DNA of 43,874 nt from Rhodanobacter sp. (GTDB taxonomy: Bacteria; Pseudomonadota; Gammaproteobacteria; Xanthomonadales; Rhodanobacteraceae): the NCBI GenBank assembly GCA_027307195.1, contig DAHUXL010000031.1, positions 1-43,874 on the forward strand, in the 5' to 3' direction. The position numbers were made by a program, and so were the translations under genes. The notes beneath the pieces were generated by a model. The model was not told the DNA's origin and ran no database searches. It saw only the letters and a list, made by a program, of their open reading frames with translations. Shown piece after piece: positions 6,889-29,490 of this stretch (positions are counted from its first letter, which is position 1; each line of letters begins with the position of its first letter).

Positions 6889-6973
6889 GCCCAGGTGGCG
6901 GAACTGGTAGACGCACTACCTTGAGGTGGTAGCGACGTAAGTCGTAGGGGTTCGAGTCCCCTCTTGGGCACCA
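6889..6973 (+). tRNA. tRNA-Leu (anticodon GAG)
   Basis: An 85-base class II tRNA. The acceptor stem GCCCAGG pairs with CTTGGGC (one G-T pair), followed by discriminator A and an encoded CCA at 6971-6973. The anticodon stem CTACC/GGTAG encloses TTGAGGT, giving anticodon GAG (reads CUC/CUU leucine codons). A long variable arm (CGACGTAAGTCG) and the T-arm GGGGTTCGAGTCCCC are clear. It lies 11 bp after secG, so it may be processed from the tpiA-secG transcript. Confidence 0.97.
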
Positions 6974-7011: not shown

Positions 7012-7045
7012 AAACAAAAAACCGCCTTCGGGCGGTTTTTTGTTT
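7012..7045. terminator. Bidirectional intrinsic terminator after tRNA-Leu
   Basis: Perfect 15-bp arms (7012-7026 and 7031-7045) with a TTCG tetraloop. The GC core ACCGCC/GGCGGT is flanked by A-run and T-run, so it can terminate on both strands. It ends the folP...secG-tRNA-Leu block. Confidence 0.93.
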
Positions 7046-8384: not shown

Positions 8385-8429
8385 ATACGCGGTGGTTGCC
8401 AAGACCCTTGATTGCGGCATGAGTCAGGG

Positions 8430-8465
8430 CAATAAAAAACCGGACTTGCGTCCGGTTTTTTATTG
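8430..8465. terminator. Bidirectional terminator between response regulator and rne
   Basis: Perfect 16-bp arms (8430-8445, 8450-8465) around TTGC. The CCGGAC/GTCCGG core is flanked by A6 and T6, serving both convergent genes. Confidence 0.93.
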
Positions 8466-8487
8466 CATGGAACAGTGAGGCGGCAAC

Positions 8488-15131: not shown

Positions 15132-15486
<355 letters not shown>

Positions 15487-15497
15487 ATAAACAAAAA

Positions 15498-15525
15498 GCC
15501 CTTGATGATCATCAAGGGCTTTTTT
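15498..15525. terminator. Terminator between ssrA and smpB
   Basis: A perfect 22-bp palindrome at 15498-15519 (arms GCCCTTGAT/ATCAAGGGC around GATC) flanked by A5 on the left and T6 on the right, so it works for both convergent transcripts. Confidence 0.92.
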
Positions 15526-28189: not shown

Positions 28190-28270
28190 CTGGATGTTGT
28201 GAATGCCACTACCGGATCGAATGTTGGCTTGTGCCTCGTGATCCGTACCGTTAGCATTCCCGCACGTTGT

Positions 28271-28405
28271 CATTGGGGAGTAGCCAGCCTCGTCCCCTGA
28301 GGCGCTCGCATCAACATACTTGGTCGTCGCTGTTTTTGACGCCATGGTGCGAACAGCAGCCGCCACCATCGGGTGGCGGTCCTGCCCGGCGAGACCTTTG
28401 GCCAT
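28271..28405 (+). promoter_or_regulatory. yybP-ykoY (Mn2+) riboswitch aptamer
   Basis: The conserved elements of the yybP-ykoY class are present in order: GGGGAGTAG at 28275-28283, TCAACATACTTG at 28311-28322 (the docking/metal loop seen in E. coli alx and mntP leaders), and the closing GGCGAGACC at 28388-28396. Between them are stem-forming stretches (CGCCATGG..., GCCGCCACC..GGGTGGCGG at 28361-28379). This class binds Mn2+ and activates efflux genes. It lies 78 bp before a cation exchanger gene. Exact ends are approximate; the region 28190-28270 is probably its promoter. Confidence 0.88.
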
Positions 28406-28421
28406 CGACATGCTTACCCTA

Positions 28422-28471
28422 GACCGGGCGAGCGGTGTCGTTGAGCCATCGGTTATTCCGCTCGCCCGGTC
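28422..28471 (+). promoter_or_regulatory. Expression-platform hairpin of the Mn riboswitch
   Basis: A 14-bp perfect inverted repeat, GACCGGGCGAGCGG (28422-28435) and CCGCTCGCCCGGTC (28458-28471), ends directly before CAGG (28472-28475), the only ribosome-binding candidate for the ATG at 28483. There is no T-run. It probably controls translation or read-through together with the upstream aptamer; CCCGGCGAGACC of the aptamer shares the GGGCGAG-type sequence. Confidence 0.65.
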
Positions 28472-28482
28472 CAGGTCATCCC

Positions 28483-29490
28483 ATGTTGCTTACCCTGTGT
28501 CTGTTTCTCGGTTCGGCCGGCGCGATCTATCTCGCCTGCGAATACTTCGTCAACGGCGTCGAATGGTTCGGGCAGAAGCTCAAGCTGAGTGAGACGGCGA
28601 CCGGTACGGTGCTGGCGGCGTTCGGCACGGCGTTGCCGGAAAGCGCGGTGACTTTCGTCGCGGTGATGTTCGGCAAGACAGCCGAGGCGCGCGATATCGG
28701 CGTGGGTGCCGCGATGGGTGGTCCGCTGGTATTGGCCACGATCGCCTATGCGGTGGTCGGCGTGGCGATGTGGTGCAATCGCCATCGGCTGCGGCGGACT
28801 GACCGGATCATCCGGGTCGATCATCGCCGGCTGGCGCGCGATCAATCGTGGTTCCTGGCGATTTTTGTGGTCAAGGTCGGCCTGGGGCTGGTCGTGTTCG
28901 CGTTCAAGCCGCTGCTGGGCGTGCTGTTTCTGGTTGCCTATGCCATGTATGTGTGGCGCGAAATTCGCAGCGACGACAGTGCTCCGGAAGACGAGACACT
29001 TGAGCCGCTGAAGTTTCGCACCAGTCAGATCGATCCGGCCCTGCGCTGGGTGGTGATGCAGACGGTGGCAGCGTTGGTGGTGATTGCAGCCGCATCGCGG
29101 GTGTTCGTCAGCCAGCTCGAAGCCATCGGCGTCGCACTTTCATTGCCGCCGAATCTGGTCGCGCTGCTGCTGAGTCCGGTCGCGACAGAACTGCCGGAAA
29201 CCGTCAACGCACTGATCTGGGTACGCCAGGGCAAGGAGCGTCTGGCGCTGGCGAACATCTCCGGCGCGATGATGATCCAGGCCACCATCCCCAGCTCACT
29301 GGCGATCTTCGCCACGCCATGGCTGTTCGATACGCCGCTGATCGTGGCCGGCGTACTGACCGCGATCGCCATCGTGTATCTGTGGTGGTTGTTCCGCCGT
29401 GGTCGGGTAGACGCACGCTGGCTGTTGCCGGTCGGCCTGCTGTACGGCGTGTTTGCCGGGTTTGTGGCGTGGCACTTTGCCGGCAGATGA
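28483..29490 (+). CDS. CaCA-family cation exchanger (putative Mn2+ exporter)
   Basis: A 335-residue membrane protein with about ten hydrophobic segments and two alpha-repeats typical of calcium/cation antiporters: alpha-1 LSETATGTVLAAFGTALPES (about 36-54) and alpha-2 LPPNLVALLLSPVATELPET (about 221-240). An acidic cytoplasmic loop (RSDDSAPEDETLEPL) separates the halves. The family includes Na+/Ca2+ and H+/Ca2+ exchangers; control by a manganese riboswitch suggests Mn2+ efflux here, an inference. Start at 28483 follows CAGG. It is inserted between dapB and carA and may be transcribed on its own. Confidence 0.88.
   Translation: MLLTLCLFLGSAGAIYLACEYFVNGVEWFGQKLKLSETATGTVLAAFGTALPESAVTFVAVMFGKTAEARDIGVGAAMGGPLVLATIAYAVVGVAMWCNRHRLRRTDRIIRVDHRRLARDQSWFLAIFVVKVGLGLVVFAFKPLLGVLFLVAYAMYVWREIRSDDSAPEDETLEPLKFRTSQIDPALRWVVMQTVAALVVIAAASRVFVSQLEAIGVALSLPPNLVALLLSPVATELPETVNALIWVRQGKERLALANISGAMMIQATIPSSLAIFATPWLFDTPLIVAGVLTAIAIVYLWWLFRRGRVDARWLLPVGLLYGVFAGFVAWHFAGR

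Follow-up and report, generated by a model that had tools for sequence, protein, structure and literature searches.

Upstream of a gene of the cation:Ca2+ exchanger family (CaCA, PF01699) in Rhodanobacter sp., a perfect 14-bp hairpin, here called H, is conserved together with a set of alternative pairings that would dissolve it. We consider it rather probable that H is the Mn2+-bound (ON) hairpin of a riboswitch expression platform with two toggle strands. The window analyzed is a stretch of 43,874 nucleotides, from a genome that is Rhodanobacter-like in that Rhodanobacter makes up most of the closest named relatives with the gene. Mn2+ riboswitches are widespread, and how the signal is relayed in proteobacterial ones that lack a clear terminator is unsettled. 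A covarying two-toggle platform, common to CaCA and UPF0016-type genes and in outline to E. coli mntP, turns this into exact, testable base pairs, and it carries the warning that a stem adjoining the ribosome site is not necessarily the OFF structure. The switch, which would control a probable manganese exporter gene, appears to be a variation, not seen before in this form, on an established riboswitch platform, though part of it may already have been published for mntP.

Aptamer, promoter and gene

A cmscan search placed a match to the yybP-ykoY Mn2+ riboswitch family (RF00080) at 28263-28387, with 52.7 bits against a cut-off of 45. It was the sole match in the genome, and such a match was present in 209 of 234 genomes of the bacterial family. 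The features that mark membership of RF00080 were found as well, namely the conserved loops GGGGAGUAG and UCAACAUACUUG at 28275-28283 and 28311-28322, the P1.1 switch helix GTCATTGG/CCTTTGGC, and a metal-transporter context, given here by the PF01699 exchanger gene with its ATG start codon at 28483. From these sequence features the element is predicted to bind Mn2+ and to control expression. The product of the gene is probably a Mn2+ exporter, judging from the riboswitch and by analogy with B. pertussis BP3410 (PMC8546581), and the promoter-like boxes suggest a putative RNA start near 28264, at the foot of the aptamer.

28229-28234, + strand: putative -35-like box TTGTGC, 17 nt from the -10-like box; similar boxes occur in several relatives
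28252-28257, + strand: putative -10-like box TAGCAT; TANNNT at this place in relative loci L069-L144, TATAAT in Burkholderiaceae loci
28263-28387, + strand: Mn2+ riboswitch aptamer (yybP-ykoY, RF00080), P1.1 3' strand excluded
28269-28276, + strand: P1.1 5' strand GTCATTGG, which pairs with 28395-28402; standard pairs at 6 of the 8 pairings in 62-69 of 69 sequences
28483-29490, + strand: CaCA family gene (Pfam E=1.4e-29); relatives match from residue 1

The Rfam model stops short of the P1.1 3' strand (28388-28403, compared with the match at 28263-28387), and the conserved GAGACCTTTGGCC, the switching segment in these proteobacteria, falls outside the annotated RF00080 match.

Hairpin H

The left arm GACCGGGCGAGCGG and the right arm CCGCTCGCCCGGTC are perfect 14-nt inverted repeats enclosing a loop of 22 nt, and the hairpin alone has a computed folding energy of about -39 kcal/mol. 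An earlier sequence-only reading had reported this 14-bp perfect stem and the lack of a T-run after it, and both observations were confirmed: the stem lies at 28422-28435/28458-28471 and no T-run was found 3' of it. The window contains four perfect 14-bp inverted repeats with a loop of at most 40 nt (at 7012, 8429, 15493 and 28422), compared with a mean of 0.02 per window in 200 dinucleotide-preserving shuffles, so that H is real and far above chance. The three further repeats span 7012-7045, 8429-8466 and 15493-15524; those at 7012 and 15493 lie 3' of a tRNA (6889-6970) and of the tmRNA (15132-15486), respectively, and are probably terminators.

28422-28435, + strand: left arm of H (toggle strand 2), perfect complement of 28458-28471; both-side changes in 10 of 11 pairs of H
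28458-28471, + strand: right arm of H, complement of the left arm; shares in the covariation of H
28473-28475, + strand: SD-like AGG, which can pair with CCT 28418-28420 as an extension of the stem in this window; extension not conserved

A search of the whole genome for the arm of H returned the two arm sites and no other exact copies, and near-matches were no more frequent than for a reversed control pattern; the uniqueness of the arm rules out H as a dispersed repeat. The stem runs on past one A.C mismatch, CCT facing AGG, and the SD-like AGG is thus itself pairable in this window, a point absent from the sequence-only reading. This extension was paired in 18/43 and 24/43 of the relatives, which rules out pairing of the SD with the H stem extension as a conserved device.

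Two strands with two partners each

The sequence-only reading had noted that part of the left arm resembles the aptamer's CCCGGCGAGACC. The resemblance is real. Both the P1.1 3' strand and the left arm have two possible partners, and the RNA can therefore form either P1.1 together with H or one long OFF hairpin, in which 28394-28420 pairs with 28426-28453 through helices A, K and K'.

28395-28402, + strand: P1.1 3' strand (toggle strand 1), which pairs with 28269-28276 (ON) or with 28445-28452 (OFF, helix A)
28404-28411, + strand: helix K 5' strand of the OFF hairpin, which pairs with 28435-28442; both-side changes at 28406-28411, matched by 0/500 runs of the phylogeny-aware null
28412-28419, + strand: linker GCTTACCC, a mimic of the right-arm sequence GCTCGCCC; pairs with the left arm at 28426-28433 in the OFF hairpin (K')
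28435-28442, + strand: helix K 3' strand; covariation against both nulls
28445-28452, + strand: segment l GCCATCGG, which mimics the P1.1 5' strand and contends with it for 28395-28402 by forming helix A

Segment l shared 6-7 of its 8 letters with the P1.1 5' strand in 61/69 sequences, and a change of G to A at 28401 was accompanied by C to T at 28446 in 17/17 cases. The linker, GCTYACCC, copies the right arm. At 28413/28432/28461 the linker, left arm and right arm changed together from CGC to TAT in 6/92 sequences, a three-way covariation.

Conservation across relatives

The aptamer and the same series of segments were found 5' of nearly all orthologues, in Rhodanobacter, Dyella, Luteibacter, Frateuria, Acinetobacter, Ralstonia, Chromobacterium and others. 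The order is conserved as P1.1 3' strand, linker, left arm, l, right arm and ribosome site, and H in the relatives always lies between the RF00080 aptamer and the start codon. The same order, built from quite different sequences, was present at more distant exchanger genes and at UPF0016-like genes, both within the same bacterial family and in the Burkholderiaceae. Class-wide searches, one with a covariance model and one with the protein, gave few matches.

At loci L002-L015, L170-L173 and L247-L280 the same interleaved two-hairpin platform, in different sequence, was observed upstream of more distant CaCA genes and of UPF0016/GDT1-like genes, whose family was assigned by eye from the start of the protein. 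A strong SD usually stands directly 3' of the right arm at the UPF0016/GDT1-like and distant CaCA loci.

Covariation of the helices

A first covariation scan of 92 close relatives met too little variation in the region. The covariation of H, A and K was scored on alignment A2, which holds 69 diverse sequences, with two nulls: 500 shuffles, which ignore relatedness, and 500 runs in which column evolution was simulated on the tree (phylogeny-aware). In A2, H was 93.3% paired with both-side changes in 10/11 pairs, helix A (28395-28402 with 28445-28452) was 97.8% paired, and helix K (28406-28411 with 28435-28440) showed both-side changes in 6/6 pairs. Jointly, the three helices exceeded all 500 shuffles and all slid controls; against the phylogeny-aware null each exceeded 500/500 simulations in both covariation measures. 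Helix K' (28412-28419 with 28426-28433), 91.3% paired in alignment A1, exceeded 500/500 simulations in one measure and all but one in the other, with 37 compensatory cells compared with 9.8 in the phylogeny-aware null (1/500). Over all measures, H, A, K and K' were matched by 0-2/500 simulations each, except for the percentage paired of helix A (7/500). At the level of single pairs, 28401-28446 alone was significant under the phylogenetic null (GC:52 AU:17, E=0.03), and the support therefore stands at the level of the helix. An alignment-free test of the u:l duplex, in which the P1.1 3' strand with the bases next after it faces l with the bases just before it, gave z < -2 in 68/69 sequences (mean -4.1). 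Covariation in the aligned sequences thus shows the helices H, A, K and K' to be conserved pairings.

The sequence-only reading had proposed that the stem is part of the riboswitch switch and had looked to its conservation in relatives; the stem is conserved, with covariation, and the alternative fold lends further support to its role in switching. That reading had also suggested that the right arm may pair alternatively with the aptamer 3' side at 28384-28396. Such a pairing is possible, also in energy: 28388-28393 can form a helix with the right arm, and 28385-28393 a longer one with 28461-28469 that contains a single conserved C.C mismatch. Covariation was absent, however: the helix of the right arm with 28388-28393 was matched by 198/500 and 165/500 runs of the phylogeny-aware null and by 194/500 shuffles. 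It was rejected as a conserved alternative; the covarying one consists of the left arm with the linker and of 28395-28402 with 28445-28452.

Predicted fold energies

With the helices enforced, P1.1 with H folded at -107.8 kcal/mol in this window and the OFF fold at -107.5 kcal/mol, which bears out the expectation of an alternative fold of comparable energy. Other settings gave gaps of 1.0-1.4 kcal/mol in either direction, and the two folds are thus predicted to be nearly balanced in this window. In 92 relatives the OFF fold was favoured by 8.2 ± 6.3 kcal/mol for the complete RNA and by 8.5 ± 3.3 kcal/mol for an RNA ending before the right arm. Nearest-neighbour energies leave out Mn2+ and the tertiary contacts of the aptamer, and the preference for the OFF fold therefore fits a switch that needs its ligand to form P1.1 and H.

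The output step

From the position of the stem and the missing T-run, control of translation rather than termination had been proposed. This does not follow, because many relatives have a weak SD motif or none and because the predicted accessibility of the ribosome site, 0.58 when H is formed and 0.51 in the OFF fold, differs little between the folds and speaks against H as a block to the site; the Mn-dependent RNA levels of a related pair (PMC8546581) likewise leave the claim unsupported. Pairing of the SD or start codon conserved in one state only, as in an SD-sequestering platform, was not found, and an SD paired in the OFF state to the linker between l and the right arm gave energies no better than those of swapped controls (-2.36 vs -2.67). 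Nor did we find the GC-rich hairpin and U run of an intrinsic terminator: no run follows H, and the U tract after the OFF hairpin is weak (2.8 T per 8 nt vs 2.0 expected), which rules out the OFF hairpin as a good intrinsic terminator.

Pairing of the ribosome site with the freed aptamer loop GGAGUAG was discarded, being predicted in some Betaproteobacteria and Acinetobacter only. At those loci (L133-L138, L145 and L213, from several Betaproteobacteria and Acinetobacter) a CTACTC or CTATTCC before the start codon is complementary to the aptamer loop GGAGTAG and predicted to be paired in the OFF fold. In the P1.1 and H fold of this window, CGACATG at 28406-28412 can pair with CATGTTG at 28482-28488 over the start codon. 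As a general feature this pairing was also discarded, since it is absent in most relatives and occurs mostly in Rhodanobacter.

Proposed role of H in the switch

In the riboswitches of X. oryzae and L. lactis, P1.1 is stabilised by Mn2+ and its invasion by a downstream hairpin is blocked (PMC6754395, PMC11087558); Mn2+ should therefore favour P1.1, and hence H, here as well. Because the B. pertussis CaCA gene and E. coli mntP are induced by Mn, H is taken as the hairpin of the ON state, with the polarity borrowed by analogy from these relatives. Without Mn2+, the P1.1 3' strand and the downstream sequence would zip into the long OFF hairpin, where the left arm of H would be captured by the linker at 28412-28419. 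With Mn2+, P1.1 would be stabilised and the base of the OFF hairpin lost, upon which the left arm would move to the right arm and form H just upstream of the ribosome site. The role of H would be to block the OFF hairpin from forming again and not to hide the ribosome site. In the OFF state, output may be cut by early transcript loss (possibly Rho-dependent), by reduced translation, or by both; we infer this output step, and likewise the co-transcriptional order of events.

Some points speak against H as the ON hairpin. Its place next to the ribosome site, with an overlap of the SD in some sequences, gives it the look of a sequestering stem, and both the right arm and the SD are unpaired in the OFF state, so that a translational OFF is unexplained by the conserved helices. 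H could instead be an OFF hairpin, masking the ribosome site until opened by the long hairpin as an anti-sequestor, or by the right arm pairing with the aptamer. We think this unlikely, even with H 1 nt from AGG, an extension that pairs CCT with AGG in this window, and strong SDs directly after H in the UPF0016 and Burkholderiaceae relatives. P1.1 and helix A share a strand, and Mn2+-bound P1.1 should favour H; Mn2+ would then repress the exporter, yet both the related pair (PMC8546581) and E. coli mntP (PMC9603457) are induced by Mn. Conservation is lacking, moreover, for the SD extension, as is covariation for the pairing of the right arm with the aptamer. The balance thus favours H as the ON hairpin over H as a sequestering stem.

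In sequence order H and K are adjacent, crossing helices, K can persist with P1.1, and 15-17 nt (28443-28457) are left to cross K. Both might therefore be present at once in the Mn-bound state, as an H-type pseudoknot that stacks on P1.1 and links the aptamer to the ribosome site; when helix A zips up, the crossing loop would become shorter and H would be broken. This arrangement is quite improbable, as K' covaries and is incompatible with H, which favours a plain strand exchange. A reading of H as a common transcription terminator, or as a dispersed palindromic repeat with no connection to the riboswitch, might be suggested by its perfect GC-rich stem and the terminator-like character of other 14-bp stems of the window, but is highly implausible given the missing T-run, an arm unique in the genome and, in the relatives, a conserved location always between aptamer and start codon.

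With H as the ON hairpin, a wider claim can be put forward tentatively: that a platform deeply conserved in gamma- and betaproteobacteria uses double molecular mimicry, l copying the P1.1 5' strand and the linker copying the right arm, to couple two strand exchanges, and that the hairpin on the side of the ribosome site is its ON state rather than a sequestering stem.

Comparison with known riboswitches

As in L. lactis yoaB and the X. oryzae yybP-ykoY riboswitch, the P1.1 3' strand here otherwise joins a downstream hairpin (PMC6754395, PMC11087558). In L. lactis that hairpin is an intrinsic terminator (PMC11087558), whereas the U tract of the OFF hairpin here is weak; unlike in L. lactis, a second hairpin, H, takes the left arm of the OFF hairpin and ends at the ribosome site.

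The leader of E. coli mntP has the same order of P1.1 3' strand, left arm CTGGGG, l, right arm CCCCGG and SD AGGA. In E. coli K-12 (locus L229, ~547-791), the H-like stem CTGGGG/CCCCGG flanks the partner of the P1.1 3' strand and ends 2 nt before the SD AGGA, and the u:l duplex has -21.8 kcal/mol (z -4.0). Mn turns this riboswitch ON at the level of translation, and Rho termination is partly relieved (PMC9603457, PMC11647493). It differs in having an extra hairpin between u and the left arm, no linker that mimics the right arm, an H-like stem of only 6 bp, and a gene of another family.

B. pertussis BP3410 (BprK) is a CaCA-family gene behind a yybP-ykoY riboswitch and is induced by Mn (PMC8546581). 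Its platform would have the same architecture, by analogy with other Betaproteobacteria rather than from its own leader sequence. Its RNA levels are Mn-dependent, and a short RNA of ~200 nt occurs without Mn (PMC8546581); in the window, the distance from the putative RNA start to the end of the OFF hairpin is ~190 nt.
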